From an uncultured Roseibium sp. (GTDB lineage: Bacteria; Pseudomonadota; Alphaproteobacteria; Rhizobiales; Stappiaceae), in assembly GCF_947494555.1 (NCBI RefSeq), contig NZ_CANLVF010000006.1, positions 165,374-229,373 on the forward strand: a DNA stretch of 64,000 nt. Direction: 5' to 3'. Below the pieces are notes generated by a model, which was not told the DNA's origin, did not search any database, and saw nothing but the letters and a program-made list of their open reading frames with translations. Within the stretch, counting starts at the first letter, position 1; each line of letters starts with the position of its first letter. Shown here in pieces: positions 40,594-61,922 of this stretch. The translations under genes and the position numbers were made by a program.

Positions 40594-40710
40594 CGGCACC
40601 TGTTTAGCGGTTTGCAAACGCCTTTCGACGCAACAGGACGGCTGGCACGTCAATGTACCAGCCGTCCGCGCGCTTCGTTGGTGCAAGGCAATCGCCTAAA
40701 GTATTTTGTA
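38821..40710 (+). repeat. Tandem duplication, copy 1 (1,890 bp)
   Basis: This block covers the cyclase gene from codon 31 to its end, the downstream hairpin and the last five codons of cytochrome b561. It is followed immediately by an almost identical second copy. The only difference I find is T at 40260 versus C at 42150, synonymous. The length is a multiple of three. Confidence 0.97.
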
Positions 40711-43437: not shown

Positions 43438-44133
43438 CTACGTGCGGGCTTTTTCGAACGCCGCCCATGCCGCTTCGAACTTCTCGAAGTTGAACCCGGG
43501 TTCCCGCGCAGGGCCCAAAACAAGCTGTTCCGTATCCAGAAGCTTTCGGATCGCGTTCGCCAGATCAGGGACCACTGTTTCGGGGACAACCAACGCGCCA
43601 TGCCGGTCCGCATGGACAAGTTCGCCGGGATGAATGTCCAGACCAAAGATCTTGACGGGTCCATCTATCTCCTTGACGTGAACATAGCCGTGGCTCGGTC
43701 CAATCGAACCGGCAACGACCGGAAACCCGTCCGGCAAGTCGCCGAGATCGCGCATGACCCCATTGGTCAACGTTCCTGAAAGCCCCAGCCCCTTGTGCAC
43801 TGCCGTGTTGATTTCCCCCCAGAAGGCGCCGATGGCGTTCGGGAAATCAATGTCCTCAACAACAGTCAGCGCCGGACGCGGTCCTTCTGACATGTACCGG
43901 TAGTAGTCCATTCGTCTTGCCTTGATGACTTCAGGCGGTTCGGTCGGTGGTGCCAGGGCCGAAATTTTGGCGGTGCGCGCGTAGCCGACCATGGCAGGGG
44001 CCGAAGGGTCGGAGGCCAGCATGGTCCCGCGCGTGAAACGGTTGAAGCCGCGTTTTCCCTCTGCAACTTCAATCGCATTGCACACCGTCGGCGTGTCGAC
44101 GGATCTAAGGAGGTCCAGTAGCTCGGTGTTCAT
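43438..44133 (-). CDS. RraA-family protein (HMG/CHA aldolase-like)
   Basis: 231 residues. The fold is recognised by GAFWGEINTAVHKGLGLSG, TNGVMRDLGDLPDG (the Arg-Asp pair that binds pyruvate and metal in 4-hydroxy-4-methyl-2-oxoglutarate aldolases) and HADRHGALVVP. RraA itself regulates RNase E, but in catabolic operons the family usually acts as class II aldolases or oxaloacetate decarboxylases. It is the last gene of the LacI-controlled locus and overlaps the hydrolase gene by four bases, so an aldolase role is more likely. Confidence 0.87.
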   Translation of the reverse strand: MNTELLDLLRSVDTPTVCNAIEVAEGKRGFNRFTRGTMLASDPSAPAMVGYARTAKISALAPPTEPPEVIKARRMDYYRYMSEGPRPALTVVEDIDFPNAIGAFWGEINTAVHKGLGLSGTLTNGVMRDLGDLPDGFPVVAGSIGPSHGYVHVKEIDGPVKIFGLDIHPGELVHADRHGALVVPETVVPDLANAIRKLLDTEQLVLGPAREPGFNFEKFEAAWAAFEKART

Positions 44134-44825
44134 TGGATATCCAGCCAGGTCTTGAAGGCCGCGTTTACGGCCTCGGGTTGTTCAAGGGTCGGCAGATGGC
44201 CTGCTTGTTCAACGATCCTGAGATCGGATCCATCGACAAGCGCGTGCATCAATTCATGCCGTTCCAAAGGGCAGAGCCGATCTTCCTTTCCCATCAGGAT
44301 CAGGGTCGGCACTGTCAGCGCTTGGAGCGTTTCCTGCTGATCAGGCCGCGTTTGAAGGGCCCTGGACTGGCGCTCGAAAACCTCGGGACCGAGATCAAGG
44401 GCCATCGCCATGCACGCCTCCAGGACGTCCTGCCGCAACGGACCGTTCGCCAGGTAATTCGGCTTGAGTTCGTCTCTCATCACCTCGCGCAGTCCGCCTG
44501 CCCTTACCTTGCCGATCTGCGGCTCGCGCCGCTGCTTGACCTCGTCCAGTTCCGCACGGGGATTTGTGTCCAGCAATGCCAGTCTCGAAACCCGGTCCGG
44601 AGCCTGCCTCACGATTTCCATCGCGACGATCCCGCCCATTGAGAGCCCGGCCAGCGCAAATTTCGGCGGCGCCTTGTCAAGAACATCCGCTGCCAGCGCT
44701 TCCACCGTGGCGTGGTCTGTGATCGGAGCCAGATGAAGCGGCACGCGTCCTGACAGGGCGGCGATCTGAGGGCCGTAAAGCCGCGCGTCACACATCATAC
44801 CCGGAAGCAGGACGAGTGGGGTCAC
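44130..44825 (-). CDS. Alpha/beta hydrolase
   Basis: 231 residues. VLLPGMMCDARLYGPQ (oxyanion region), nucleophile elbow LAGLSMGGIVAM, acid near LMGKEDRLCP and histidine in EQAGHLPTLEQP give the Ser-Asp-His triad. Similar to enol-lactonases and esterases of aromatic catabolism. It overlaps both neighbours by four bases, so expression is strictly coupled. Probable role: hydrolysis of a lactone or ester intermediate before the RraA-type cleavage. Confidence 0.88.
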   Translation of the reverse strand: MTPLVLLPGMMCDARLYGPQIAALSGRVPLHLAPITDHATVEALAADVLDKAPPKFALAGLSMGGIVAMEIVRQAPDRVSRLALLDTNPRAELDEVKQRREPQIGKVRAGGLREVMRDELKPNYLANGPLRQDVLEACMAMALDLGPEVFERQSRALQTRPDQQETLQALTVPTLILMGKEDRLCPLERHELMHALVDGSDLRIVEQAGHLPTLEQPEAVNAAFKTWLDIQ

Positions 44826-45955
44826 GCACGTCCTCCGGCAATCGCGGCACCGTCGGCAAGAGCCTTCAGCTTGGCAAAGGCGATCTCCGGATCAACCGCG
44901 CCAAAGCCTGCAAAGGTGCCGAAGCCGCAATCCGATCCGGCAATCACGCGATCCGCACCAACAATTGGGATAAACCGGTCCAGACGCTGAGCAACCACTT
45001 CCGGGTGCTCGACGAAATTCGTGGTCGTATCAACAACACCCGGGACAAGAACCTTGTCGTCGGGAATTTCGGATTTGCGATCACGGAAGACCGTCCATTC
45101 ATGTGCGTGCCTGGGGTTGGACGTCTCGAACAGCACATAGCGGGCGCGTGCCGACATTAGCGTCGAAAACACCTTGTCCATGGAAATGTCGCAGACATGC
45201 GGGCCTTCGTAGTTCCCCCAGCAGATGTGAATGCGCACCTTTGCCGGATCGATGTTCTGAAGCGCATGATTCAGCGCATCGACATGGCTCGCTGCGATCT
45301 TCAGGAATTCATCATCCGAAAGATCGGTGAAGAGCATATGCCGTGACAGCGCGAGGTCCGGACAATCGAGCTGCAGGTTCAGTCCCGAAGCGACGATGGT
45401 CTCGTACTCATCCTTCATGACGTCCGCGAGCGCCTGCAGATAGGCTTCGCGGGACGGGTAATAATCATTCTGGAGAAAGAGCGAAATCACCCCGGGCGAG
45501 GCGGCATTCATGAAGCCGTGTTCCGCGCCATGTTCTGCCATCGCAAGTTTCAGATGGCGGATGTCCTTGATCAGCTCGCCCTGCCCTTTGGAGCGGACTT
45601 CACCAGTACACATCGGACGCGCGTATTGGGGCGTGCCACCGCTCTCCGCGATCCGTTTCAGGAAGCTCGGATACATTTTCAAGTCGGCGGGCGCATTGCG
45701 CGGACTGTCACCGGAAAAACCCGTGTAGCGGTCTTTCACATAAGTCGCGTAGGAGATTTTGGAGGTCTCTCCGTCGCTGACGATGGTAACGCCCGCTTCG
45801 ACCTGCTTGCGCACGGTTTCCGACACAGCAGCCGCCATGGCCGCATCAAAGGCTGCCTCGTCATAGTCTTCGCCTTTTTCCCGGGCAAAGATAAAGTCGA
45901 CGACTGCCTGTGTTCTCGGCAATGAGCCGACGTGGGTAACGTCAATCTTGCTCAT
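44822..45955 (-). CDS. MetE C-terminal-like zinc protein (cobalamin-independent methionine synthase family)
   Basis: 377 residues from ATG 45955 (GGGGAG before it). Only the catalytic half of MetE is represented: THVGSLPRT at the start, SDGETSKISY, the zinc ligands His-x-Cys in RIHICWGNYEG, Glu in VLFETSNPR and Cys in GSDCGFGTF. The homocysteine-binding N-terminal half is absent. Family members of this size in catabolic operons are mostly uncharacterised and may transfer methyl groups or use the zinc site for other thiol chemistry. Demethylation of the pathway substrate is a reasonable guess only. Confidence 0.87.
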   Translation of the reverse strand: MSKIDVTHVGSLPRTQAVVDFIFAREKGEDYDEAAFDAAMAAAVSETVRKQVEAGVTIVSDGETSKISYATYVKDRYTGFSGDSPRNAPADLKMYPSFLKRIAESGGTPQYARPMCTGEVRSKGQGELIKDIRHLKLAMAEHGAEHGFMNAASPGVISLFLQNDYYPSREAYLQALADVMKDEYETIVASGLNLQLDCPDLALSRHMLFTDLSDDEFLKIAASHVDALNHALQNIDPAKVRIHICWGNYEGPHVCDISMDKVFSTLMSARARYVLFETSNPRHAHEWTVFRDRKSEIPDDKVLVPGVVDTTTNFVEHPEVVAQRLDRFIPIVGADRVIAGSDCGFGTFAGFGAVDPEIAFAKLKALADGAAIAGGRA

Positions 45956-46077
45956 GATCTCCCCCAGTGTTTCTGGCAAATTCTTACGCCTTGCCTCTGA
46001 TTTGTTTCGAGCATCTGTGACCCGTCAACGCCTTGCAGGACGCGTGGAGCGCAAGCCGGGCCGGCCCTGCACTTTCA

Positions 46078-47043
46078 TCAAACGACCCAGGTCGGTCCTG
46101 CCGGATCATCGGTGTTCATGACACGATACAGACTGGCTTCGCCGCTCATGGATGGTACGAGGCTGTGTTCGAGGCCCGGTGGCACGGCTGCTGTGTCGCC
46201 CGGCGCAAGTGTCTTTTCGCCACCCGGCCAACTGAGTTTCCAATGACCACGCACCACCATCAGAATTTCATGACTGGCGAGGCTGTAGCTCGTTTCCGGG
46301 ATCGATCCGCGGGTCAGGAACTCGACCTCGAAACCCGGTTTGTCTTTCAGGAGCCCGGCTTCGCCGATTACCCGGCAGGGCGTTTTGGCGGAGAGTGCCG
46401 TCATGTCCCAGTAACGCGCAACATAGTCCCTGACGACGGCTTCATTGCCCGGTTCAGGGAAGGCCTGAAGCTGTTCGTCGGTCAAAAGCGGCATCGGCTT
46501 GATACCGTCCGGGAGCACCTGCCCTTTCTTGGTGTCGTAAAGTACACCGTTTTCGCCGAGAACAAGGCCATGATCGGCGGCGTCTTCAATGACCTGAGGC
46601 GCCCAGGTCACGCCGCCACCGGCATCGTCACCACCCAGGATCGCCATGATCATTCCGTAGTCGGTGCCGATGTTTTCAAAGCCTCTGAAGATGCCCGTCG
46701 GGATGTTGAAAATGTCGCCTTCTTCCAGAACAACTTCACCGGCCGATCCCCAACGCCCCCAGAAAAACCGCCAGCGGCCCTTCAGGACAAAGAACACCTC
46801 TGCTGTGGTGTGCGAATGCAGCGAGTTGCGGCATTTCGGGGGCTGGCCTGCCGCCCCGATATTGAAGCCCGGAGTTTCCTTGATATGCACGTGCTGGTCC
46901 GGACTTTCGGAGACCCCGCCTCCGATGATCGTGAAGTTTTCTTTCTGATCCGAGCCTGGCGTGTGGGCGTCGATGAATGCCGTGCGGCACGGTTTCAGAT
47001 CACCATAGCGCACGATCCGGCTTTCCATTTCTTGAGGGGTCAT
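46078..47043 (-). CDS. Bicupin protein
   Basis: About 321 residues from ATG 47043. Two cupin domains. The first (about 70-140) has metal ligands in LHSHTTAEVFFVLKG (His-x-His-x4-Glu) but the second-motif histidine is replaced (IPTGIFRGFEN). The second (about 230-310) has lost the HxH pair (SLASHEILMVVRG) yet keeps PPGLEHSL. This resembles gentisate-dioxygenase-like bicupins in size, but key residues differ, so oxygenase activity is uncertain; an isomerase or lyase is possible. Confidence 0.83.
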   Translation of the reverse strand: MTPQEMESRIVRYGDLKPCRTAFIDAHTPGSDQKENFTIIGGGVSESPDQHVHIKETPGFNIGAAGQPPKCRNSLHSHTTAEVFFVLKGRWRFFWGRWGSAGEVVLEEGDIFNIPTGIFRGFENIGTDYGMIMAILGGDDAGGGVTWAPQVIEDAADHGLVLGENGVLYDTKKGQVLPDGIKPMPLLTDEQLQAFPEPGNEAVVRDYVARYWDMTALSAKTPCRVIGEAGLLKDKPGFEVEFLTRGSIPETSYSLASHEILMVVRGHWKLSWPGGEKTLAPGDTAAVPPGLEHSLVPSMSGEASLYRVMNTDDPAGPTWVV

Positions 47044-47067
47044 AACCAACCTGCCTGTTTGCTCACA

Positions 47068-48036
47068 TCATCCAGTCTTCAACGCGATCTGTTTCCAGAT
47101 CGCCGTCTCATCAAAGAGAGCGTATTCACGTCTCAGCCCCCAGGGACCGAATTCGGCATGGCACGCACCCATGACGTAGACATCCGCCCCGGAGGGCTCC
47201 CCGAAGGCGCCCCAACCATCATGTTTGCCGGAGAGCGACCAGCGGATGGCCGCACGCGGCGGCATCAGTGGATCGTCGCGCCCGATCTGATGCTCAATCT
47301 TGAATTCGGCGGATGGAAAGCTGGACCGCAGTCCCATCCAGAACCTGTCGGCAGCCGCCCAGGAATAGCCGTTGACGAAACCGGGATAGGCAAGCTCACA
47401 CGCGCGGTCGTATTCCGCCTCGATCGCTGCCATGTCCGCATTCATGAGACGGCTCAGAATATCGGCGTATTTCGCGCCCCATTCACTGTCGTTGCCGTTT
47501 CCCTTGTAGGGGCCGGCCTTGTCGACCGCTGCGGTAAAGGGCCGGACGCAGTGTTCCGGTCCGCCCTCTCGCGCTATGAGATCGCGTGCATAGTCTTTCG
47601 GATCCCAGCCCATTTGCCGGACGATCGCGCCCTGGTCGCGGATCAGCCATTCGTCGTTGATCTGATTGTCGATCGCGTGGCAGTCCGCGATGATCCGGTA
47701 TTGCAGCTTCTTGCCGGTTGCCTTTCCGTAAACGCCGTCACCGAGATGGGTCGCGGTTGAGATAATACGATGGGAAGACAGCATGCCGTCCTCCGGTGTG
47801 CCGGACCAGATTACGTCTTCACCGAAAAGGGTCCTGTCGGGAAATTCCGACAGGGTCGCCATTGTCGCACCGATGACATCCTTGTTGCCGACAACGAGCG
47901 AGCCCGGCGACCGGACAATGATGTCGCTGGAATAGTAGTGATGCAGGGTCGCGATCTTGCGGTCTTCCCAGATCTCTTTCGTGATGCCGATTATGTAGTC
48001 CGGAAAATCCTTCCAGCGCGGGTCAAAGCCTTTCAT
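47068..48036 (-). CDS. SnoaL/NTF2-like protein, double domain (1)
   Basis: 322 residues, two NTF2-type cone folds. The first half includes HHYYSSDIIVRSPGSLVVGN and the second GYSWAAADRFWMGLRSSFP and ALFDETAIWKQIAL. No signal peptide. It belongs with the other SnoaL-like proteins at 49818, 52324 and 57652, all in this locus. SnoaL relatives catalyse cyclisation, isomerisation or hydration without cofactors. The start overlaps the lacI end by 14 bases. Confidence 0.75.
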   Translation of the reverse strand: MKGFDPRWKDFPDYIIGITKEIWEDRKIATLHHYYSSDIIVRSPGSLVVGNKDVIGATMATLSEFPDRTLFGEDVIWSGTPEDGMLSSHRIISTATHLGDGVYGKATGKKLQYRIIADCHAIDNQINDEWLIRDQGAIVRQMGWDPKDYARDLIAREGGPEHCVRPFTAAVDKAGPYKGNGNDSEWGAKYADILSRLMNADMAAIEAEYDRACELAYPGFVNGYSWAAADRFWMGLRSSFPSAEFKIEHQIGRDDPLMPPRAAIRWSLSGKHDGWGAFGEPSGADVYVMGACHAEFGPWGLRREYALFDETAIWKQIALKTG

Positions 48037-49054
48037 CGGGCCATCCTTCGGGTATGCGCGCGGAGCCGCGGATCATGAGCGGTCCGTCAATCTGTATTTT
48101 CTGAACGTCGTTGCTGCCCTCTTCGATCCAGCCAAGCAGCGTGGAGACAGTCGCTTCCACCATCCGGTTCGAGGGCTGCCGCAAGGTTGTCAGATCGTAA
48201 GCAGGCCATGAGGCAAGCGGCACATCATCGTAGCCGACCACGGACACGTCACCCGGAACGTCGAGTTTCAGTTCGAACCGCAGGACATCCATCACGGCAA
48301 ACGCCATGTGATCGTTTCCGACAAAGACCGCGTCGGGCCGTTCGTTTCCGGAGAAGATTTCACGCGTTGCGGCCGCGGCCGTCTCTCGGTTGTACATCCC
48401 ATCGATGCAGCGGGTGATATCAAGTCCTGCAGCGTTCAGCCCGGCCAGGAACCCCGACTGTCTGTCCCGGCCTGTCGACGAGCCCGACCAGCCAGCGATG
48501 TGAGCGATCCTGCGGTGGCCGCCGGCGACAAGAAATTCCGCGATCTTGCGGCCACCCTCAAAGTTGTTCGACGTGACCTGATTGAGCCGTTCGTCGTCCT
48601 GGCCACGGTTGAAAAGAACAACCGGCACCCCGGCTGCCGCGCAACGGGCAGCCAAAGCGTTGGACATGCCGACGGATGCGGTGATGATGCCGTCGACCTG
48701 ATAGTCCAGCAGTTCTCCCATCACCTTGTCGACACCCGCGTCATCGTTGGAAACCATGAAAACGAGAATGTGGTAGCCATGCGCCTGCAGCGCCGTGGAG
48801 AGTTTTTCGAGTGCGTCCGGGTAAAACTGGTTCTCAAGGTAGGCAACAACCAGCCCGATGATGCGCGACCGCCCCGTGATCAGCGAACGGGCCAGAACAT
48901 TGGGCCTGTATCCGAGTTCCTGGGCCGCCTTGAGCACTTTCTCGGCCATTTTGGGAGAGACCGAAGCCCCGGGCGTGAACACGCGGCTGACAGCGGACTG
49001 GCTGACACCGGCCCTTCTCGCAACATCAACGGACGTGACTTTCTCAGCGCGCAT
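48023..49054 (-). CDS. LacI-family transcriptional regulator of the SnoaL/HisD locus
   Basis: 343 residues from ATG 49054, which shares one base with the SDR stop (TAATG). N-terminal helix-turn-helix VDVARRAGVSQSAVSRVFTPG and hinge GYRPNVLARSLITGRSRIIG; effector domain with LVVAYLENQFYPDAL, AVFVGNDHMAFAVMDV and SVVGYDDVPLASWPAYDLTT. Embedded inside the operon it likely controls. Predicted to bind the TTGCAT-N4-ATGCAA palindromes at 52259, 57536 and 57591, hence autoregulation. Confidence 0.93.
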   Translation of the reverse strand: MRAEKVTSVDVARRAGVSQSAVSRVFTPGASVSPKMAEKVLKAAQELGYRPNVLARSLITGRSRIIGLVVAYLENQFYPDALEKLSTALQAHGYHILVFMVSNDDAGVDKVMGELLDYQVDGIITASVGMSNALAARCAAAGVPVVLFNRGQDDERLNQVTSNNFEGGRKIAEFLVAGGHRRIAHIAGWSGSSTGRDRQSGFLAGLNAAGLDITRCIDGMYNRETAAAATREIFSGNERPDAVFVGNDHMAFAVMDVLRFELKLDVPGDVSVVGYDDVPLASWPAYDLTTLRQPSNRMVEATVSTLLGWIEEGSNDVQKIQIDGPLMIRGSARIPEGWPDERL

Positions 49055-49821
49055 TAGTCGGCCGTCCAACCTCCGTCGACAATCAGTGACGTGCCGGTGA
49101 CCAGCGCAGACGCATCGCTTGCCAGATAGAGAACAGCACCCATGATATCTTCCACCGTGCCGGTACGGCCGAGTTTGATCTTTTCCTCGATCCACCTGAC
49201 CCGATCCGGGTTATCAAAGGTCGCTTCGGTAAGCGGCGTGCGGATGAACGTCGGGCAGATCGTGTTGACGCGGATCTGTTTCGGTCCGAACTCCAGCGCC
49301 ATTGCCTTGGTGAAGCCTTCGACAGCAAATTTCGAAGCGCAGTAGACCGCGCGGTCGATACCGCCGACATGTGCCATCTGCGAGCTCATGTTGATCAGCG
49401 ACCCCGGCTTTCCAGCCGCGATCAATCCCTTGGCTACGCATCGCGTTACGAAATAGGCACCCCGTAGATTGACGTTCATGACCGCATCGAAGTCTTCCGG
49501 CGTAGTCTCGACGGCCGGAGAATGGCGTGCAAGGCCAGCGCTGTTGACCAGGACATCGAACGGCCCGTGTCTGTCGACGCTAACTTCGACCTCCATAACG
49601 TCGGCAATGTCGAGCTGAAGCGCAGATGCCTTCCATCCCTTTGCCGTCATGGCGTTGACGGCTTCTGCGAGTTTTTCAGTGCGGCGAGCAGCCAGCACGA
49701 CGTCTCCGCCTGCTTCAGCAAGCGCTGAAGCGCAGGCAAGGCCGATGCCTGAAGAAGCACCGGCAACAAGAACCTTCTTGCCGGCAAGAGAAAAACTCGG
49801 GGTGGAAGGCAGGTCGATCAT
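49054..49821 (-). CDS. Short-chain dehydrogenase/reductase
   Basis: 255 residues of classical SDR type: cofactor motif VAGASSGIGLACASAL, NSAGLARHSP (NNAG position), catalytic Ser in INMSSQMAHVGG and Tyr/Lys in YCASKFAVEGF, C-terminal VTGTSLIVDGGWTAD. Oxidises or reduces a hydroxy/keto group with NAD(P). Overlaps both neighbouring genes by a few bases. Confidence 0.93.
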   Translation of the reverse strand: MIDLPSTPSFSLAGKKVLVAGASSGIGLACASALAEAGGDVVLAARRTEKLAEAVNAMTAKGWKASALQLDIADVMEVEVSVDRHGPFDVLVNSAGLARHSPAVETTPEDFDAVMNVNLRGAYFVTRCVAKGLIAAGKPGSLINMSSQMAHVGGIDRAVYCASKFAVEGFTKAMALEFGPKQIRVNTICPTFIRTPLTEATFDNPDRVRWIEEKIKLGRTGTVEDIMGAVLYLASDASALVTGTSLIVDGGWTAD

Positions 49822-50867
49822 TGCAGAGCAACTCCGGTTTCAAGGTCAAAGCCAGCGCGGGCCTTGTTGAAATCCCGAAGTCTGCCGAAAACGTCAACAC
49901 CCAACTGGTCATAGGCATCCAGAAGGTCGACCAGTACCCAGTTTTCCCTGATCAAGCCGTTTTCAAGCCGCCAGAAATCGAGGCTGCGCATGGTAATACG
50001 CTTGCCGTTTGGCGCGATCCCCATCCAGCCGTCGTGGCTGACGGTCTGGATCATGTTCGGCCAGCCGGTGACCGCCGCATATTCACGGTCGCCGAAGAAA
50101 TGATAGGTGATTTCGTCGACATACTGTCCGCGATCCGGCATGCCGTTCAGGAACGGGATCTGATGCCACTTGCGGAAGCCCTTGATGCCACGGCCCGTAC
50201 CGATACCGGACGGGCCGTACCAGCTCATGCGGGGGTGCCAGAAGCGCGGCATTTCCATCACTTCCGGACCGCCCTGCGAAGGGTGCTTTTTCAGGTATTC
50301 CAGCATGTCGATGATATGCTGGCAGGTGCGCTGACCTGCTTCGGCGTCATAAGGTCCGGGTACGATGCCGTCCTCCGTCGCCGGACCCGGCACATGCCAT
50401 TCGCGCCCGAGACTTGGGGCCATCGGCCACGCGGCCGCCTGCATCATAACTTCGGGAATATCCCAGATCGCCTGAAACTCCACGACCTTGTCCTCCACGA
50501 AGCGATAGAACTCGTGAAAGCGCATTGCGAACTGATGGCCTGTCGCCGGAATATCAAGCCACGGCTTTTCGAACGATCCTGTGTAGTAACCACCACAGCC
50601 GACCCAGTCGTCGCCTTCGGGTGTCGGGCCGGCCATCACGATCGTATCGCGGCGCTCCAAATCCGGGATTGCCTTCAAAAGCGGCCTGAAAGCCTTGTCG
50701 TAAAAAGCATCGGGACCGACCGTGTCTCCAAACGGGTGGCACAGCCTGAAGGTGGCATCTGGTGCACACAGACCCTCGAGGGTCTTGCGAACCACGGCTT
50801 CCTCGAAATCGTACATTGCGGCCCGTAATGGGGCGATCAATGCCTTATGGGCCGTGTGCTTATCCAT
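49818..50867 (-). CDS. SnoaL/NTF2-like protein, double domain (2)
   Basis: 349 residues from ATG 50867, three bases after the HisD-like stop; the frame extends to 50981 within that gene. Two NTF2-like domains. PGPATEDGIVPG, MSWYGPSGIGTG and LDFWRLENGLIRENWVLVDLLD match the protein at 57652 (PGPATHDGVLP, MLWYGPGGIGS, MDFYRCAGGKIMENWVLLDYLD), so these are paralogues. Probably a cofactor-free isomerase, cyclase or hydratase acting in the pathway; specific reaction unknown. Confidence 0.8.
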   Translation of the reverse strand: MDKHTAHKALIAPLRAAMYDFEEAVVRKTLEGLCAPDATFRLCHPFGDTVGPDAFYDKAFRPLLKAIPDLERRDTIVMAGPTPEGDDWVGCGGYYTGSFEKPWLDIPATGHQFAMRFHEFYRFVEDKVVEFQAIWDIPEVMMQAAAWPMAPSLGREWHVPGPATEDGIVPGPYDAEAGQRTCQHIIDMLEYLKKHPSQGGPEVMEMPRFWHPRMSWYGPSGIGTGRGIKGFRKWHQIPFLNGMPDRGQYVDEITYHFFGDREYAAVTGWPNMIQTVSHDGWMGIAPNGKRITMRSLDFWRLENGLIRENWVLVDLLDAYDQLGVDVFGRLRDFNKARAGFDLETGVALQ

Positions 50868-50869
50868 TT

Positions 50870-52180
50870 CTACTCGGCAGCCTCTCCGTAAGGCACGTTT
50901 CCGCCGCCATATCTGCGGACGCGGACATTTGCCTGTTCCGCGTGGCCGACAAAGCCCTCCAGCATGCACAGGCGCGAGCAATAAGCGCCAATCTCGGCAG
51001 CTGCGTCATCCGTGAGGACTTTCTGGTAGGAATGCGTTTTCAGGAACTTGCCGACCCAAAGTCCGCCCGTGTAGCGTCCGGCCTTTTTCGTCGGCAGCGT
51101 ATGGTTCGTACCGATCACCTTGTCGCCGTTGGCAACGTTGGTTCTGGCTCCCAGGAACAACGCGCCATAACAGGTCATGTTATCCAGGAACCAGTCGTCC
51201 CGGTCGGTCATCACCTGCACGTGCTCCGAGGCGATGTCATCGGCAACGGCGAGCATCTCGTCATAGGTGTCGCACAGGATCACTTCGCCATAGTCCTCCC
51301 AGGATTTCGACGCGGTGTCAGCCGTTGGCAGGATCTTCAAAAGCCGGTCGATTTCAGAGAGTGTCTCGGTGGCGAGCTTACGCGAATTGGTGACCAGAAC
51401 CGCCGGCGAGTTGTAGCCATGCTCTGCCTGGCCGAGCAGGTCGGTCGCGCACATTTCCGCATCGACCGTTTCGTCTGCAATCACCATCGTCTCGGTCGGA
51501 CCTGCAAAGAGATCGATGCCGACACGCCCGAAGAGCTGGCGCTTGGCTTCGGCAACGAAGGCATTGCCTGGGCCGACGAGCATGTGGACCGGGTCGATGG
51601 TCTCCGTTCCTATCGCCATGGCGCCGACGGCCTGGATGCCGCCGAGGACATAAATCTCATGCGCGCCGCCAAGATGCATTGCGGCGATCACCGCCGGGTT
51701 AGGTGCACCCTTGAAGGGCGGCGTTGCGGCAATGATGCGCGGCACCTCGGCAACGGATGCTGTCGCGACCGACATATGCGCCGAGGCAACCATTGGAAAC
51801 TTGCCGCCCGGCACATAACAGCCGACCGACTGCACGGGTATGTTCTTGTGTCCAAGAATGACGCCTGGCATCGTTTCGACTTCGATGTCCAGCATCGATG
51901 CACGCTGCGCTTCGGCGAACTTGCGCACCTGTTCCTGAGCGAATTTGATGTCTTCCATGTCCCGTTGCGAGACCTGGTTCATCAGGGCGTCGATTTCCGA
52001 GGCGCTCAACCGGAAAGAGGCCGGCGAATAGTTATCGAATTTCTCCGAAAGTTCGCGAACCGCGGCATCGCCGCGTGCCTCGATCTCCTTGAGCGTTCCC
52101 TCCACGATGGAGCGAACCTTGGCATCGTCTTCGGAGCGTTCGGATTCCGGCTTCCCGCGCTTCAGATACTCAATGGCCAT
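50870..52180 (-). CDS. Histidinol-dehydrogenase-family alcohol dehydrogenase (HpsN-like)
   Basis: 436 residues. The zinc and catalytic residues of the HisD fold are kept: Gln/His in [17 protein letters not shown], Glu-His in [11 protein letters not shown], Asp in [17 protein letters not shown] and C-terminal His in [11 protein letters not shown]. The subgroup ([25 protein letters not shown]) resembles HpsN, the sulfopropanediol dehydrogenase, rather than biosynthetic HisD, and no his genes are near. It would perform two-step NAD oxidation of a primary alcohol to an acid. Substrate in this locus unknown. A LacI-type operator lies 79 bases before the start. Confidence 0.88.
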
Positions 52181-52258
52181 GTTTCATCCCTTTCACGGCG
52201 CGAGCGGAAAATCTTTTGCGGATCTCAAACGCCACGCACCTTATCGTTTTCCTTCAGT

Positions 52259-52274
52259 TTGCATACGTATGCAG
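52259..52274. promoter_or_regulatory. LacI-type operator C (TTGCATACGTATGCAG)
   Basis: Contains a perfect 14-base palindrome TGCATACGTATGCA and fits TTGCAT-N4-ATGCAA with one mismatch. Located between the single-domain SnoaL gene and the HisD-like gene, so the downstream genes including lacI have their own regulated promoter. Confidence 0.8.
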
Positions 52275-52323
52275 AAAGTTCAAGTGACCTTCTGCGAAAC
52301 ATGGAAAACTACTTGGTTTTCCC

Positions 52324-52860
52324 TCACGCAGCTTTTTCTGGCGTAGGCGGGACGCGCTCGCCGCGGTCGAAGGCTTCCCAGCCCTGACCGTCAAAAACGT
52401 CCTTGCCGAGCTGGGCCAGAACATGAGGGAAGTCGACCATCACCCAGTTATCCACGATCTTGCCGTCGACCACCTTCCAGAAATCCATGTAACGGATCTC
52501 GACCCGCTTGCCCGTCGGCGCGAGCCCCATGAACTCTCCGGAATGAGTCGCTTCCTGGCGCCCGAATGCGGCAGCCCATTCACCCATGTAGAGCCGCGCC
52601 TCATCAACGCAGACCTTGTCCGAAAAGGCTGCCTGAAACGGTTTTTGCCAGTTGTCCTGAAATTCCTTGAGACCGGTTTTGGTTCCGCACCCGGTATTCC
52701 CCAGCCAACGGAAACCTGAAGAAAAGAACTCTCCGATGTCTGCGATCCGGTGGTCGTTGAGACCATCGACCATGCCTTCGATGACGCGGCGGGTTTCCTC
52801 CGTCTTGCTCATATCCGTGTCGCGGCTCAATGCCGCCTGTTCGGGACGGGATCCCTTCAT
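52324..52860 (-). CDS. SnoaL/NTF2-like protein, single domain
   Basis: 178 residues, one NTF2-like fold: VIEGMVDGLNDHRIADIGEFFS, EFMGLAPTGKRVEIRYMDFWKVVDGKIVDNWVMVDFP. The end resembles the second domain of the double-domain paralogues. ATG 52860 has AGGTGA before it; ATG 52812 is also possible and would trim a non-conserved leader. Follows the ABC permease by 42 bases. Confidence 0.8.
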   Translation of the reverse strand: MKGSRPEQAALSRDTDMSKTEETRRVIEGMVDGLNDHRIADIGEFFSSGFRWLGNTGCGTKTGLKEFQDNWQKPFQAAFSDKVCVDEARLYMGEWAAAFGRQEATHSGEFMGLAPTGKRVEIRYMDFWKVVDGKIVDNWVMVDFPHVLAQLGKDVFDGQGWEAFDRGERVPPTPEKAA

Positions 52861-52902
52861 GTTTCACCTGTGACTGTAGTGCCTGTTTGAATACTGCATG
52901 AC

Positions 52903-54069
52903 CTATCCCTTCACGGCTCCGGCTGTTAGGCCCGAAACGATCTGGCGCTGGAAAATCATGATCAGCAAGAAAAGCGGTGCGATGATAGACACCGCCGCAG
53001 CCACGGCTTCAACCTGATCCGTCGTGGTCGTTTCACGATTGAAGTAGCCGGCAATGGCCGGAACCATGGTCTGGTTCTGCGCGTCCAAGAGGAGCGAACA
53101 GACCAGATAGTCGTTATAGGCGAGCAGGAAGCTGAAGAGGCCTGTCGTGATTACGCCCGGCCACATCACCGGCATGATCACCCAGCGGAATGCCTGGAAG
53201 TGGGTGCATCCGTCCACGCGCGCCGCTTCGTCCAGCTCGTTCGGGATGTTCTGGAAGAACGACCGCAGCATCCAGATCGTGAAGGGCTGGTTGATCGACA
53301 CCAGGACCGCGATCACCGCCCAGGGTTTGCCATAAAGGGTCGGCGCTGCATCGCCCAGGAGCGGGCGCAGGATTTCGGCCGAATTGATGAAGGGCGGCAG
53401 ATAACCGGCGACGAGGACGGAATGCGGCAGCGCGCGGAAGACCAGCGCGATAATGAGGATCCAGAAGGCTATGACCGATCCGGTCGATCCCGACCTTGCC
53501 AGGCCGTAACCGGCAAGGGTTCCGACCGTCAAGGAGACCGTCACCACACCAACCGTGACAATCAGCGAATTGGTGAAGTTCTCGTAGAAAGCGTTTTCGA
53601 CCCATACGGCCTGATAGTGTTCTGTGGTCAGGCCGAGGATCGGTTTGCCAAACGGGCCGAGCACCGAATTGACCACACCCAGAACCGGCGGAAGGATTCC
53701 CGCGAACACAATCAGGAAGCCGATTGCAAACACGAGCGCGCCGATTATCCAGCCCGGGACGAGCAGATGGGGCGGCGTGTACTTGCTGACCATTTTCGGA
53801 AGAAGCGTCATGGCCAGGTGGATCGTGTACCAGAGAAACGCAATTCCGACGATGATGCTGACAATCGACAGGCCGCGGCCGGTCGCAACGGTTTCGGGTC
53901 CGAAAATCACGCTGAGAGGGTTCGAGGAAAAGGCGTCGATCGGGTCCTTGAAGCTCATGACCGCGATCCAGAAGATCGGGAAAGCAGCAATCAGGCACCA
54001 GAACGCCAGGAAACCGGCCGAGGACAGTTGCAGCGCCATGGGCTGCTGCATGGATTTTGGCAGGCTCAT
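52903..54069 (-). CDS. Carbohydrate-type ABC transporter permease 2
   Basis: 388 residues, longer than the usual 280 because of extra sequence between the first and second helices (FLWYTIHLAMTL and LLVPGWIIGALVFAIGF add two helices). EAA loop DEAARVDGCTHFQAFRWVIMP; terminal IVSGLTAGAVKG. CUT1-type inner-membrane permease. ATGA overlap with the other permease. Hydrophobic insert suggests a subfamily with seven to eight helices. Confidence 0.9.
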   Translation of the reverse strand: MSLPKSMQQPMALQLSSAGFLAFWCLIAAFPIFWIAVMSFKDPIDAFSSNPLSVIFGPETVATGRGLSIVSIIVGIAFLWYTIHLAMTLLPKMVSKYTPPHLLVPGWIIGALVFAIGFLIVFAGILPPVLGVVNSVLGPFGKPILGLTTEHYQAVWVENAFYENFTNSLIVTVGVVTVSLTVGTLAGYGLARSGSTGSVIAFWILIIALVFRALPHSVLVAGYLPPFINSAEILRPLLGDAAPTLYGKPWAVIAVLVSINQPFTIWMLRSFFQNIPNELDEAARVDGCTHFQAFRWVIMPVMWPGVITTGLFSFLLAYNDYLVCSLLLDAQNQTMVPAIAGYFNRETTTTDQVEAVAAAVSIIAPLFLLIMIFQRQIVSGLTAGAVKG

Positions 54070-55091
54070 ACCCGTCCTCCCTTGTGATCGCGCCAGGTTT
54101 TGCGCAGCAACGGAATCAGCAGAACAACAATGCCGATCATGGTGAGCATCGCACTTGCGGATGCGCGCGAAATGGATCGGTTTCCGCTGTCATCAGGCGT
54201 CAACAGGTCGTAGGTCAGCCATTGCAGGGAAATGCGGTAGGCCTGGCTCGAGAAGCCGACAATCTCCTCGAAGACGCGGTACGAATCCATCAGGTGGATC
54301 AGCGAAACGAAAACAATGAGCGGCATCAGGTGCGGAATGATGACATAGCGCAGCCTCTCCCAGCGACTCGCTCCGTCAATCACTGCCGATTCCAGCGTGT
54401 CCTGATTGACGGTTTGCAGGCCTGCATAAAAGACCAGGAATGCAAAGGGTGCCACGTGCCAGACACGGTAGAACATCATCAGAAGTTCAATGGTCCAACC
54501 CTGTCCGAACATGGATATGTCGCGCCCGAGCCACCACTCCAGAAAGGCCGTCATGATGCCGTCGCCGATGAACAGCCAGCGGATGGACAGCGCCCCGATA
54601 ACCGGTGTGATGATGAAGGGCAGCAGTGAAACGAAAATGATGGGGCCACGTATCATTCGGGTGGCATTGTTGACCGTGATCGCAATGGCCAGCCCGACAC
54701 CGATAACAAGGGGAAGCGTTACCAGCGTGAACGTCAATGTGAAGCGGAGTGCCTTCCAGAAGTCGATGGTCAGCAGGGCATCAAAATCAAGAGCGCTCAG
54801 GGCCTCCCAGGCACGACCCGGCTCCAGTACATTGGAGTAGCTCTCCAGACCGACATATTTCACCGTCGTGACGATCTTGCCGTCGTCTCCAAGAACCGGT
54901 TGTATTTTTGTTTCGGTGACGCATGTCTGGTTCGGAAAACCGGGGGTGCAGGTTTCCACTTCAACCTGTTCGAACACCGGTTGCGTGACATAGAAACTCT
55001 GCATGAACACGCTGACAAGCGGTGCAGCGATAAAGAGCAGCATCAGGAAGATGGACGGGCCGACAAAAGCGGCAAATGTCTTGGTGTTCAT
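54066..55091 (-). CDS. Carbohydrate-type ABC transporter permease 1
   Basis: 341 residues, six helices with a periplasmic insert of about 60 residues after helix 1 containing two cysteines (ETCTPGFPNQTCVTE), as in some polyol/glycerol-phosphate permeases. EAA loop ESAVIDGASRWERLRYVIIP. GGGAGG precedes the ATG. Partner of the following permease. Confidence 0.9.
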   Translation of the reverse strand: MNTKTFAAFVGPSIFLMLLFIAAPLVSVFMQSFYVTQPVFEQVEVETCTPGFPNQTCVTETKIQPVLGDDGKIVTTVKYVGLESYSNVLEPGRAWEALSALDFDALLTIDFWKALRFTLTFTLVTLPLVIGVGLAIAITVNNATRMIRGPIIFVSLLPFIITPVIGALSIRWLFIGDGIMTAFLEWWLGRDISMFGQGWTIELLMMFYRVWHVAPFAFLVFYAGLQTVNQDTLESAVIDGASRWERLRYVIIPHLMPLIVFVSLIHLMDSYRVFEEIVGFSSQAYRISLQWLTYDLLTPDDSGNRSISRASASAMLTMIGIVVLLIPLLRKTWRDHKGGRV

Positions 55092-55121
55092 GCTGCCCTC
55101 CCGTGAAAGTACCTGGATAGG

Positions 55122-55145
55122 GCGAAGGGCGCGGGCGCCCCTCGC
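55122..55145 (-). terminator. Intra-operon hairpin after the binding-protein gene
   Basis: An 11-position stem (GCGAAGGGCGC / GCGCCCCTCGC, one mismatch) in the 70-base gap between binding-protein and permease genes. Same position as the hairpins at 10872-10945 and 30990-31010. Likely mRNA stabiliser or attenuator; no T-run. Confidence 0.5.
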
Positions 55146-55161
55146 GAAGGCTGTTGCGGCC

Positions 55162-56367
55162 TTACTTGATCAGTCCGGCTTCCTTCGCCGACGTCGTGTA
55201 CGCGGCGGCGATGTCCTTCAACGTCGTCTCGGCGTCTTTTGCACCGGTCAGATAATCGGCGACACCGTTGCCAAGCGCTGTGTGCATCAGGCCCATCTGC
55301 GAGCTCGCCGGGTACGGCAACGCTCCGGCTTCAGCTGTCTGAACAACGCCGAGCGCGAGAGGTCCAGGCTCGTAGCCCTCGATCAGCCAGACAGCGACGT
55401 CATTGTTTTCCTTGACCATTTCAGGTGTCATGCCATTCATCGCGACACGGAAAGCAGCTTCAGCTTCTTCGTCGGATGCATTTTTGGCGATGACGATGCC
55501 GTCCCACCACAATGTGGAGGCTGCGCGTGCGTTAGCGGTCGGGGCACCGGCCATTTTGACCTTGCCGACAACCTGGGATTCATTCGGATCGTCCATAGCC
55601 CCTGCACGGCTGGCCCACAGGTTCGCCATGGCAATCTTGCCCTGCTGGAACTGCTGCTGGACGTAGGTGGAGTCTGAAACGAGATATTCCGGATCCATGT
55701 ATTCGGTCAGCTTCTTGAGCATTTCGAGAGACGCAACGCCCTGCTCATTCTCGATCGTCGCAGCATTGTCCGGCCCAAAGAACTCGCCGCCCATGCCGAG
55801 ATACATGTTCACGAATTCCTCACCGAGGTTCCAACCGGTCTTGAATGTACCGCCAATCGGGTATTCCACGACGCCGGCTTCCTTGATCTTGGCGGCCGCT
55901 GACAGAACCTCGTCATAGGTTTTCGGCACCGGGATGCCGAGATCGGTCAGAATGTCCTCGCGATACATCAGGTGCTGCGCATTCACCATCATGGCAACGG
56001 CCATGGTCTCGCCGTTGATCTTGATGAGCTGGTTCGCGGTCAGGTTCTGACCGTGTTTCGCGATAAGGTCATCGAGCGGACGAACGGTTCCTTCGTTGAG
56101 CAGCGGAACGAGGGTTCCGTTGGCAACACCGCCGATTTGGTAGAGCGACGGGTTGGCGGCAAATGCCGCGGGCTGCTTGGTGCGGAACTCCTGGTCTAGT
56201 TCAGCTTCGAAGTCGCCGCATTTGGCCATGAAAGACGTCACCGCCTTCCAGGCTTCAAAACCGGCGGTAAGAGATTTCACCGGTGTCGTATTCGTGAAAT
56301 CACAGGCGCTTGCCGCACCAGTGACTGCCAGCGACATCGCACCGGCAAGAAGCAGTTTCTTCAACAT
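55162..56367 (-). CDS. ABC transporter substrate-binding protein (family 1)
   Basis: 401 residues. Signal peptide KKLLLAGAMSLAVTGAASA then CDFTN; the Cys is probably not a lipobox cysteine because the site lacks the L-x-G/A-C spacing context, but it is close. The mature protein has YREDILTDLGIPVPKTYDEVLSAAAKI and NLWASRAGAMDDP, typical of CUT1 binding proteins for sugars or polyols. GGGAG lies before the ATG. Periplasmic receptor of the locus transporter. Confidence 0.9.
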   Translation of the reverse strand: MLKKLLLAGAMSLAVTGAASACDFTNTTPVKSLTAGFEAWKAVTSFMAKCGDFEAELDQEFRTKQPAAFAANPSLYQIGGVANGTLVPLLNEGTVRPLDDLIAKHGQNLTANQLIKINGETMAVAMMVNAQHLMYREDILTDLGIPVPKTYDEVLSAAAKIKEAGVVEYPIGGTFKTGWNLGEEFVNMYLGMGGEFFGPDNAATIENEQGVASLEMLKKLTEYMDPEYLVSDSTYVQQQFQQGKIAMANLWASRAGAMDDPNESQVVGKVKMAGAPTANARAASTLWWDGIVIAKNASDEEAEAAFRVAMNGMTPEMVKENNDVAVWLIEGYEPGPLALGVVQTAEAGALPYPASSQMGLMHTALGNGVADYLTGAKDAETTLKDIAAAYTTSAKEAGLIK

Positions 56368-56446
56368 CTGTCAGGTCTCCCTGCTGTTCCATGCGCCGAC
56401 AGGCGCTGCTCTGGTTTTTTCGGCAGAATGCCGGGTCCGGACCGGC

Positions 56447-57502
56447 TTAAGCGTCAATGCGCGCGCCTGTCTCGTGATTGAAAAGATGACAAATTTCGCC
56501 GGGGATGTGCAGCCCGACTTTTTCGTCGATCTCGATCCTGTAGTCCTTGTTGGCCTTTACGGACACGAGCGCTCCACCGGCTTTCACGGTGATCATCGTG
56601 GCATCGCCAAGCAGCTCCATGGTGTAAACCGGTGCGTTGATTTCCGCGTCTGCGCTCGATGATGCAACGGCGGCGTCCTCGGCGCGGAAACCGAGGGTCA
56701 TGGGACCGTCGGGGCCGTCAAGTCCTGTGATGCTGACGTTTTCGCCCGTGAAGGTGCCGGCAGACAAAGTACCTTCCATGAGGTTCATGGCAGGAGATCC
56801 GATGAAGCTGGCAACGAATGTGTTGGCCGGACGGTCATAAATTTCCGTCGGCGATCCGACCTGTTGCACGATGCCGCGTTTCATCACGACGACACGGTCG
56901 GCAAGGGTCATCGCCTCGATCTGGTCGTGCGTGACGTAGATGGTCGTCACCTGCAATTCGTGTTGCAGGTTCTTGATCTGCGCCCGTGTCGAGACACGAA
57001 GCTTGGCGTCCAGATTGGAGAGCGGCTCGTCCATCAGAAAGACGTTCGGTTCGCGCACGATGGCGCGGGCAAGCGCCACACGCTGGCGCTGGCCGCCGGA
57101 CAGTTCTGCGGGTTTGCGATGCAGGAACTCGTCAAGCTCGACCATGGCGCTCGCACGGCGTACGCGGGCATCATGGGTCGACGGGTCGACCTTCCTCACC
57201 TTCAACGGAAAGCGAATGTTCTCGTAAACATTCATATTCGGGTAAAGGCCATAAGACTGGAAAACCATTGCAATGTCGCGGTCCTTGGGATCCAGATCGT
57301 TGACAACCCGGTCACCGATCACGATCTCGCCACCGGTTGCGTCTTCAAGACCGGCGATCATGCGCATGGTCGTCGTCTTGCCGCAGCCGGACGGGCCAAG
57401 CAGGACCAGAAACTCACGGTCGGCTATGGTCAGATCGAAGTTGTCGACACCGACAAAGGATCCCCAGCGTTTTGAAACGTTTCTCAGCTGAATCTCAGCC
57501 AC
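56447..57502 (-). CDS. ABC transporter ATP-binding protein (UgpC/MalK type)
   Basis: 351 residues from GTG 57502 with GAGGAGG seven bases before. Walker A GPSGCGKTT, signature LSGGQRQRVALARAIV, Walker B NVFLMDEPLSNLD, switch histidine THDQIEAM, then a TOBE regulatory domain. First gene of the reverse operon; two LacI-type operators lie 34-104 bases upstream. It also has the extra C-terminal TOBE end FNHETGARIDA. Confidence 0.94.
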   Translation of the reverse strand: MAEIQLRNVSKRWGSFVGVDNFDLTIADREFLVLLGPSGCGKTTTMRMIAGLEDATGGEIVIGDRVVNDLDPKDRDIAMVFQSYGLYPNMNVYENIRFPLKVRKVDPSTHDARVRRASAMVELDEFLHRKPAELSGGQRQRVALARAIVREPNVFLMDEPLSNLDAKLRVSTRAQIKNLQHELQVTTIYVTHDQIEAMTLADRVVVMKRGIVQQVGSPTEIYDRPANTFVASFIGSPAMNLMEGTLSAGTFTGENVSITGLDGPDGPMTLGFRAEDAAVASSSADAEINAPVYTMELLGDATMITVKAGGALVSVKANKDYRIEIDEKVGLHIPGEICHLFNHETGARIDA

Positions 57503-57535
57503 TGCGTCCCCTCCTCAGCAATCCGAGCGACAATC

Positions 57536-57551
57536 TTGCATTCCTATGCAA
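57536..57551. promoter_or_regulatory. LacI-type operator A (TTGCATTCCTATGCAA)
   Basis: Perfect TTGCAT/ATGCAA arms with a four-base centre, 34 bases upstream of the ABC ATPase start, within the 149-base divergent promoter region. Confidence 0.75.
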
Positions 57552-57590
57552 TTTAGCTAGACACAGAGGAAAGACTTTGGCAATGATTTT

Positions 57591-57606
57591 TTGCATACGA
57601 ATGCAA
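57591..57606. promoter_or_regulatory. LacI-type operator B (TTGCATACGAATGCAA)
   Basis: Same arms as operator A, extended by TT/AA on each side, 55 bases further on and 45 bases before the forward SnoaL gene. Spacing of about five helical turns allows looping between A and B and control of both divergent units. Confidence 0.8.
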
Positions 57607-57651
57607 AATTGTTGCAATACGTAAAACTTCGCAATTGTTGCAAGGCACAAT

Positions 57652-58635
57652 ATGTCCGATTTCCGGCTTAAGCCACAGGGCTTTCTCGACGTCATCCTCA
57701 CAGCACCAGCGAGCGAGATGAGGTCGTTGCTTTCCAATCACTTAACCGACGACGCCATTTGGGATGTCGCCTATCCGGTGGAGCGGCTTTCCGGCAAGGC
57801 GCATGTTCAAGAGGCCTTCTTCGAACCTCTGCGAACCGCGTTTTCCAATGTCCGCCGGCGCAACGAGATTTTCATTGGCGGACCGAACCGCCGGGCTCCG
57901 GGAGGACATTGGGTCGCCAGTGTCGCCCATTATGTCGGCAATTTCGAAAATCCGCTTTTCGGTGTTCTGCCATCTCATCACCTGGCATTCCTCCGGTCCG
58001 GCGAGTTTTACCGGATCGAGCCGGACGGGCGCATCTCGGAGGCCAAGATCATCCTCGATCTCATCGATCTGATGCGGCAGGCCAACCGGATGCCTCTCCC
58101 GGGAATGCTTGGCACTGAAATGATGTTCCCAGGTCCCGCGACCCATGACGGCGTCCTGCCGGTCGATCAGGAAGACGGCGAGCGAACGCTGGATCTTTGC
58201 GAAGCGATGCTTGCGGATTTGAAAGCTTTCGATCCGAACACATTCACCTCCAAGGGCCAGACCGGTGAAAACGGCTACTGGCACGACGACATGCTCTGGT
58301 ACGGGCCGGGTGGGATCGGATCGAACTACCGCTGGAGCGGATTTGAGAAGGATCACCGGGCTTCGTTTCTGACCGCCTTTCCGGACCGGGTCGGCGGGGA
58401 CCACTATTGCCGGATCGGTGATGGCAATTACGCAGCCGTCAGCGGCTGGCCGTCCATGACCATGACGCATAAAGGCGACTATCTGGGTGTTCCTGCCACA
58501 GGTAAATCGCTTACGCTTCGGGTCATGGATTTCTACCGCTGCGCTGGCGGAAAGATCATGGAAAACTGGGTTCTGCTCGACTATCTGGATCTGTTCCGGC
58601 AGATGGGACGCGATCTGATTGCCGAGCAGGGTTAG
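57652..58635 (+). CDS. SnoaL/NTF2-like protein, double domain (3)
   Basis: 327 residues, two NTF2-like domains, paralogous to the gene at 49818 over the whole length (shared PGPAT-x-DG, WYGP-x-GIG, W-x-M and ENWVL-x-DYLD-type motifs). Divergent from the ABC operon and likely under the same LacI operators. No signal peptide. Followed by a terminator-like hairpin. Reaction unknown. Confidence 0.8.
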   Translation: MSDFRLKPQGFLDVILTAPASEMRSLLSNHLTDDAIWDVAYPVERLSGKAHVQEAFFEPLRTAFSNVRRRNEIFIGGPNRRAPGGHWVASVAHYVGNFENPLFGVLPSHHLAFLRSGEFYRIEPDGRISEAKIILDLIDLMRQANRMPLPGMLGTEMMFPGPATHDGVLPVDQEDGERTLDLCEAMLADLKAFDPNTFTSKGQTGENGYWHDDMLWYGPGGIGSNYRWSGFEKDHRASFLTAFPDRVGGDHYCRIGDGNYAAVSGWPSMTMTHKGDYLGVPATGKSLTLRVMDFYRCAGGKIMENWVLLDYLDLFRQMGRDLIAEQG

Positions 58636-58686: not shown

Positions 58687-59487
58687 TCAGCCAGCTGCGC
58701 TGACGGCGCGTTTGGCCATGACGGTGACGAGGTTTGCTCTGTAGGCTGCGGATCCGTGGATATCGTGCAGCATGGAGCCAGCGTCCACCTTGATGGAAGC
58801 GACCGCGTCCGGCGACCAGTTGCCGGCAAGGGCTGCTTCCATGCCGTCGACCCGGAAGACGCCGTAGTGGCCCGCCCCCGTGACCGCGACCCGCACCGAG
58901 CCGTCCTGGTGTTTGGCCACATAGACACCCGCCATCGCATAGCGCGAGGCCGGGTTCGGGTATTTCGCATAGGCGCCCTTCTCGATCAGCGGGAACGTCA
59001 CGGACACCACGATCTCATCCTCGTCCAGCGCCGTGTCGAACATGCCGACAAAGAAGTCTTCGGCGGAAAGCGAGCGCTTGCTCGTGACAACCGTTGCCCC
59101 CAGCGCCACAAGCGCTGCCGGATAGTCCGCAGCCGGATCGTTGTTGGCAATCGAGCCCCCGATCGTGCCCATGTGCCGAACCGCAGGATCGCCGATGCCG
59201 CCCGCAAGCCCCGCAAGGCTCGGAAGCTTCGATTTCACGAGGTCGGACGCGGCAACCTCCGCATGGGTCGTTGCCGCCCCGATCGACAGGCTGCCATCGC
59301 CCTCGCAGATGCCGTTCATCTCCGCGATCTTCGTCACATCCACAAGATCGCTCGGCGACGCAAGACGCTGCTTCATCGTCGGCAGCAGCGTCTGGCCGCC
59401 CCCAAGGATCTTGCCGTCCTCAGCCTTCGACACAAGATCCGATGCTTCGCCAACTGAGCCGGCGCGGTGATAGGTTGTTTCATACAT
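58687..59487 (-). CDS. coxM: Molybdenum hydroxylase medium (FAD) subunit, CoxM-type
   Basis: 266 residues from ATG 59487; the frame to 59739 runs in the coxL 3' region. FAD-binding motifs KILGGGQTLLPTMKQR and MGTIGGSIANNDPAADYPAAL identify the CO-dehydrogenase/xanthine-oxidase flavoprotein subunit. It takes electrons from the 2Fe-2S subunit. The gene order coxG-S-L-M is that of form II enzymes. Confidence 0.92.
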   Translation of the reverse strand: MYETTYHRAGSVGEASDLVSKAEDGKILGGGQTLLPTMKQRLASPSDLVDVTKIAEMNGICEGDGSLSIGAATTHAEVAASDLVKSKLPSLAGLAGGIGDPAVRHMGTIGGSIANNDPAADYPAALVALGATVVTSKRSLSAEDFFVGMFDTALDEDEIVVSVTFPLIEKGAYAKYPNPASRYAMAGVYVAKHQDGSVRVAVTGAGHYGVFRVDGMEAALAGNWSPDAVASIKVDAGSMLHDIHGSAAYRANLVTVMAKRAVSAAG

Positions 59488-59561
59488 GTCGGGTCTCCCC
59501 AAAATCTCTTTGTCGGTGACCGGGCAGGCTGACCCTGCCCGAAGAATTTTCCTCGCGAACC

Positions 59562-61922
<2,361 letters not shown>

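Follow-up and report, generated by a model that had tools for sequence, protein, structure and literature searches.

Algae, corals, cyanobacteria and fungi widely use mycosporine-like amino acids as a screen against ultraviolet (UV) light. Compounds of this kind are cyclohexenones or cyclohexenimines that carry glycine, serine or threonine, and mycosporines have one O-methyl group and a CH2OH on a carbon bearing a tertiary hydroxyl. According to a review (PMC3083659), whose passages on the matter name no enzyme, Vibrio harveyi has been suggested to hydrolyse the hydroxyamino acids off shinorine and porphyra-334. Among described enzymes, the HisD family oxidises an alcohol adjoining a zinc-bound hydroxyl or amino group and, in its member HpsN, the (R)-2,3-dihydroxypropane-1-sulfonate (R-DHPS) 3-dehydrogenase, His126 is the residue that recognises the sulfonate (PMC11382572). 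Here we describe a 15-gene locus in a 64-kb stretch of DNA (64,000 nucleotides, hereafter the window) from the 7.0 Mb genome of an uncultured Roseibium sp. The locus is one conserved unit, and we tentatively read it as an operon for the LacI-controlled import and degradation of mycosporine-like compounds, an assignment that we regard as quite possible, though short of probable, and in which the individual chemical steps are deduced. Literature searches, covering the best-ranked matches and with subscription papers mostly outside them, found neither a gene cluster for mycosporine breakdown nor a published pathway with this gene set; the latter agrees with an earlier description made from the letters of the window alone (the sequence-only reading), which had recognised no such pathway. 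The part consulted of a Roseobacter litoralis proteomics paper tied nothing to this cluster.

Domain searches and translations of open reading frames (ORFs) gave 14 minus-strand genes (57502 down to 43438) and a divergent gene, Sno57, and matched every protein family that the sequence-only reading had named. Counts over close loci refer throughout to the best 80 of 402 Sno49-bearing stretches in named genomes. The genes and predicted operators are as follows.

43438..44133, minus strand: RraA-like aldolase (PF03737), by domain match; matched in 68 of the 80 loci
44130..44825, minus strand: alpha/beta hydrolase, PcaD-like, by domain match; matched in 54 of the 80 loci
44822..45955, minus strand: MetE-core protein (PF01717), corrected start, with a conserved H-x-C, E, C pattern; 71 of the 80 loci
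46078..47043, minus strand: bicupin, corrected start, by domain match and alignment
47068..48036, minus strand: Sno47, double SnoaL protein, by domain match and tree (deeply separate clade)
48023..49054, minus strand: LacI-family repressor, corrected start, by domain match
49054..49821, minus strand: short-chain dehydrogenase/reductase (SDR), by domain match
49818..50867, minus strand: Sno49, double SnoaL protein, corrected start, by domain match, homolog search and tree
50870..52180, minus strand: HisD-like NAD dehydrogenase, HpsN-related, in which GKFPM replaces GRYAH
52257..52276, no strand: predicted LacI operator with 2 mismatches, upstream of HisD, by pattern scan
52324..52860, minus strand: Sno52, single-domain SnoaL protein, by domain match
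52903..54069, minus strand: ATP-binding cassette (ABC) permease 2, carbohydrate type, by domain match
54066..55091, minus strand: ABC permease 1, carbohydrate type, by domain match
55162..56367, minus strand: ABC solute-binding protein (SBP_bac_1), by domain match and structure-database search
56447..57502, minus strand: ABC ATPase, UgpC/MalK type, by domain match
57536..57551, no strand: second, imperfect predicted LacI operator, position counted from the promoter sequence
57589..57608, no strand: predicted LacI operator with 1 mismatch, in the divergent promoter, by pattern scan and conservation
57652..58635, plus strand: Sno57, double SnoaL protein, divergent, by domain match, alignment and tree

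Six of the 13 same-strand junctions overlap (by 1, 4, 4, 4, 4 and 14 bases), the remaining junctions being gaps of 2–143 bases. The tight coupling described earlier is therefore right as to the range of the overlaps, 1–14 bases, but the statement that most genes overlap was generous, and the gene at 57652 is divergent. Several of the ORF extents first quoted were probably too long; the true starts of the MetE, bicupin, LacI and Sno49 genes are likely 45955, 47043, 49054 and 50867. The motifs PGPAT-x-DG and WYGP-x-GIG, reported as common to two double SnoaL paralogs, are present in both translations. Across 30 aligned relatives PGP and W-x-GP-x-G-x-G are invariant. Searches of solved structures gave one marginal match for the bicupin and weak IdmH/TsrD matches for Sno49, and were uninformative.

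The genes co-occur, as the sequence-only reading had supposed. In the 70 of the 80 close loci that are uncut (at least 7 kb on each side), all 13 core genes are found together in 56, and each single core gene in 62–70. The search from which these loci come gave 5720 Sno49 homologs at E 1e-3 among 7037 candidates, and 402 of 412 candidate stretches in named genomes encode a Sno49 relative. The closest named relatives are Roseibium and Labrenzia loci (L001–L011), with a Sno49 identity of 77–89%. At E 1e-40, 22 of 398 genomes drawn from the phylum, the window's own genome counted, have a Sno49 relative. The binding protein comes in two types (at least 60% identity in 51 of 69 loci, below 50% in 18), which indicates that the importer varies while the enzymes stay constant. 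Among the 66 loci with sequence enough to judge, the Sno57 slot is occupied in 55 (type A in 16, type B in 39) and empty in 11. Two further observations concern these loci: a class I methyltransferase gene lies between bicupin and MetE in L041 (14951–15553) and L039, with a match in 31 of the 80 loci, and a SAR324 metagenome-assembled genome holds two copies of the SnoaL cluster (L052 and L053) on two contigs, their SnoaL proteins being identical in the tree-aligned columns.

Control by LacI, proposed from the outset, is supported by the LacI gene together with a predicted operator that is conserved at the promoter. The divergent promoter contains the LacI-type palindrome TTTTGCATACGTATGCAAAA, and TTGCA-N6-TGCAA is present in 57 of 59 divergent promoters of related loci. 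Allowing up to 3 mismatches, the window has two sites (57589, with 1 mismatch, and 52257, with 2), against none in 100 shuffles, and the whole genome has four places, two of them in the cluster, with one match per strand for a reversed control pattern. The 1.61 Mb of related loci contain 116 sites, the reversed control matching 5 times, and 17 of 19 cluster-bearing genomes have sites, 23 in total, 21 of them no more than 12 kb from a cluster gene of the same contig. We infer that the LacI of the cluster binds this operator. The site ahead of HisD is particular to the window: one of 68 corresponding gaps has it. Of the two places outside the cluster, one (in L232) precedes a second sugar-type ABC importer and the other (in L233) an ABC set that has a LacI of its own. 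The former (contig C3 541266; position 9968 of L232) is a good site with no match to a LacI gene in the 20 kb taken around it, and this second importer may belong to the same regulon.

The evidence behind our reading of the double SnoaL proteins comes from genomes that we call Vibrio-type, the genus name being assigned from 94–99% identity to a V. europaeus protein. Of 227 such genomes, 65 carry a type-B double SnoaL gene with an identity of at least 80% (67 copies), and an L-serine ammonia-lyase gene lies 4.3–4.9 kb away, first base to first base, from at least 50 of the 67. This count used 58 lyase places, presumed second copies being omitted, and none of the listed places so omitted comes closer than 10 kb to any of the 17 unlinked copies. 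The block runs LacI, porin, SnoaL, major facilitator superfamily (MFS) transporter, symporter, lyase. Among eight of the 17 unlinked copies that we examined, L212 and L217 have an adjoining lyase at 74–75% identity and L213 has a fragment match, while in the stretches taken for L214, L215, L216, L219 and L221 no lyase was found. In L224 the SnoaL/lyase block adjoins hydrolase, bicupin, SDR, HisD, aldolase, LacI and Sno47 genes and a Sno49-like gene. The tree groups the Vibrio-type SnoaL proteins and the Sno57-slot proteins of Ruegeria, Shimia and SAR324 in one clade (100/100); inside this type-B clade the Vibrio-type proteins are nearer those of SAR324 and L134 (99/97). Because these relatives travel with L-serine ammonia-lyase, we read the double SnoaL proteins as amino-acid releasing acid-base hydrolases. 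The cofactor-free rearrangement first suggested gives way to hydrolysis of a ring C–N bond, which fits the link better. Genes for glycine cleavage, read by eye, stand beside a Granulosicoccaceae copy (L068). Sarcosine-oxidase genes beside V. pelagius copies were considered and set aside as apparently incidental, given that the stretch of L220 shows this SnoaL/ABC block and no such genes.

Natural variants separate the locus into parts. A simple core of HisD, SDR, bicupin, hydrolase, aldolase and LacI occurs in L162–L165, in Sinorhizobium medicae (L170), on a Roseibium aggregatum plasmid (L174) and on a Martelella plasmid (L180). The stretches examined of all these gave no match to Sno49 or MetE; distant Sno47-like proteins are kept in L162–L165, L170 and L180. 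MetE and Sno49 can thus be detached from the core, as expected if the substrate of the core is without methyl and glycine. The operator is present in 11 of the 28 other loci that were scanned (L135, L162, L163, L165, L170, L175, L179, L180, L220, L224 and L227). Its presence in simple clusters (the gammaproteobacterial L162, L163 and L165, S. medicae L170 and Martelella L180) suggests that the inducer is an intermediate common to simple and full clusters, and it is thus probably a core intermediate. The window and most of its close relatives have RraA as the aldolase; an HpaI-type aldolase takes its place in L162–L165 and, by annotation, in Rhizorhabdus wittichii, and by weaker similarity in L219, L224, L225 and L227. 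That two unrelated families of pyruvate-type aldolase stand in for each other fits a final retro-aldol cleavage of a 4-hydroxy-2-oxo acid, and lends support to the aldol cleavage proposed earlier. Importers also vary, there being two ABC types, a sodium symporter in L134, tripartite ATP-independent periplasmic (TRAP) transporter genes in L174 and an MFS gene in L162. On a haloarchaeal plasmid of Halobellus limi, SnoaL proteins (four double, one single) are encoded together with a MetE-core protein (40%) and an ABC importer. An amidase is present in L162, L165, L170 and L180 and a second HisD in L162–L165 and L180; in the 80 close loci the amidase has no match and the second HisD one.

How the enzymes would act together can be set out for a mycosporine. 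The ABC importer would take up the sunscreen compound, and the double SnoaL proteins would hydrolyse its ring C–N bonds to give 4-deoxygadusol, the hydroxyamino acid being released by the protein in the Sno57 slot and glycine by Sno49. The MetE-like protein would transfer the O-methyl group to a thiol. Its HICWGN, FETSN and GSDCGF segments are each conserved in at least 95% of 71 rows, and the H-x-C, E, C pattern of the MetE zinc ligands is kept; this pattern, and the absence of MetE from the simpler clusters, are in keeping with the demethylation that had been raised as a possibility. The HisD-like enzyme, whose alignment retains the equivalents of HpsN E318, H319, D352, Q248, H251 and H411, would oxidise the CH2OH that adjoins the tertiary alcohol, giving a carboxylate. 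The SDR, bicupin and hydrolase would then open the ring. Oxidation of the CH2OH carbon and cleavage between the neighbouring ring carbonyl carbons would yield 4-carboxy-4-hydroxy-2-oxoadipate, a known substrate of the RraA family, which RraA would split to pyruvate and oxaloacetate. Import and oxidation, both part of the sequence-only reading, are supported. If fungal mycosporine-glutaminol, with its amide and amino alcohol, were a substrate, this would explain the amidase and the second HisD. The broader proposal takes the locus as the first genetic system for the complete breakdown of mycosporine-like compounds, with double NTF2-fold proteins as new C–N (vinylogous amide or imine) hydrolases, a MetE-type protein as an O-demethylase, and the core plus amidase and second HisD serving for fungal mycosporines in soil and coastal bacteria; we put it forward as a possibility that we hold with more doubt than confidence.

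A number of results weigh against mycosporine breakdown. The window Sno57 is of type A, in a clade separate from the serine-linked type B, and Sno47 is distant; most of the 50 linked copies are one block inherited within the genus, not independent events, and the Vibrio-type serine lyase has no match in any of the 80 close loci. The operator motif was not found in 17 of the 28 other loci scanned, L134, L166 and L173 among them. MetE is missing, although a Sno49-type gene is present, from four of the 70 uncut loci and from L171 and L175, and we know of no MetE-type O-demethylase. In the bicupin, H76, H78 and E82 are invariant in 23 rows, with F119 at the usual place of the fourth ligand, so that a dioxygenase and an isomerase are both possible. 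The RraA-like protein scores 22.7 bits against an NCBIfam cut-off of 304.5 for 4-carboxy-4-hydroxy-2-oxoadipate aldolase. A 2025 paper (PMC12478193) regards as questionable what core-MetE homologs do in aerobic marine bacteria.

Two of the contrary results also count for the main rival, the breakdown of a sugar or sugar acid that is O-methylated or branched, which we consider somewhat unlikely. Of the named structural matches of the binding protein (27 sequences; best E 1.3e-14) nearly all belong to the sugar type, and the importer is itself of the carbohydrate type. Furthermore, a fuconolactonase-like gene near 29 of the 80 loci and a gluconate/galactonate-dehydratase-like gene near 16, both below the NCBIfam cut-off, would suit a sugar acid. 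Under this explanation the SDR and HisD oxidise, a lactonase opens the lactone, the SnoaL proteins eliminate or isomerise, MetE demethylates and RraA or HpaI cleaves a 2-keto-3-deoxy acid, the HpaI-type aldolase of other lineages being in its favour. However, the lactonase and dehydratase are inconstant among loci, the 15 genes include no sugar kinase or glycosidase, and the serine ammonia-lyase link and the amidase are left unexplained. The polyol- or sugar-like substrate of the sequence-only reading thus draws support from the binding protein and from the genes beside some copies, but we prefer a mycosporine. A second explanation, another amino-acid conjugate of a hydroxymethyl compound on which the double SnoaL proteins likewise release an amino acid, we judge unlikely: it shares the serine link and accommodates the amidase and second HisD genes, yet no other abundant marine compound with an O-methyl group and a CH2OH beside a tertiary alcohol is known to us. 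Finally, a DHPS or related sulfonate pathway, suggested by the closest solved relatives of the HisD-like protein being sulfopropanediol 3-dehydrogenases, was rejected as highly improbable, given that Met, in GKFPM, stands at the position of the sulfonate-sensing His126 in at least 95% of 77 rows and that no sulfolactate lyase or sulfite gene is among the 15.

Turning to the surroundings of the locus, CoxM/CoxL-type molybdenum hydroxylase genes at 58687–61922 directly adjoin the cluster. We do not count them as part of the system, their only tblastn match among the 80 loci being in L003; most of the loci show about 2 kb beyond Sno57. On the other side, at 38686–42483, are tandem, near-identical cyclase-like genes (38686–40593 and 40612–42483; family read by eye) with an N-terminal sensor part, which are either a recent duplication or an assembly artefact, a single copy being present in the stretch of L003.

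If mycosporine breakdown is the true function, the cluster accounts for the old report of Vibrio hydrolysis of mycosporines, provides marker genes for following carbon and nitrogen through reefs and blooms, and extends the NTF2 and MetE folds to new reactions. Should the substrate be a different one, there is still a marine catabolic pathway of 15 genes, widely conserved and with a defined operator motif, that matches none of the published pathways found.

Set against known systems, the locus combines familiar parts in an unfamiliar arrangement. With HpsN its HisD-like protein shares the fold family and equivalents of the zinc and catalytic residues, while differing in the sulfonate pocket and in its gene neighbours. 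Its SnoaL proteins have in common with SnoaL-type cyclases and NTF2-like acid-base enzymes the SnoaL Pfam domain and a conserved E-N-W-x3-D end motif, but differ from them in the fusion of two domains and in the setting, a catabolic operon with no polyketide genes. The MetE-like protein has PF01717 and the zinc-ligand pattern of the cobalamin-independent methyltransferases, but is without the N-terminal half of MetE and is located inside a catabolic operon. An RraA-like domain is common to the aldolase and to LigK/PcmE, the 4-carboxy-4-hydroxy-2-oxoadipate aldolase, with a score far below the curated cut-off. As in LacI-controlled ABC sugar operons, there is a LacI gene, a palindrome at the promoter and a carbohydrate-type ABC importer; unlike them, the enzyme set has four SnoaL proteins and neither kinase nor glycosidase.

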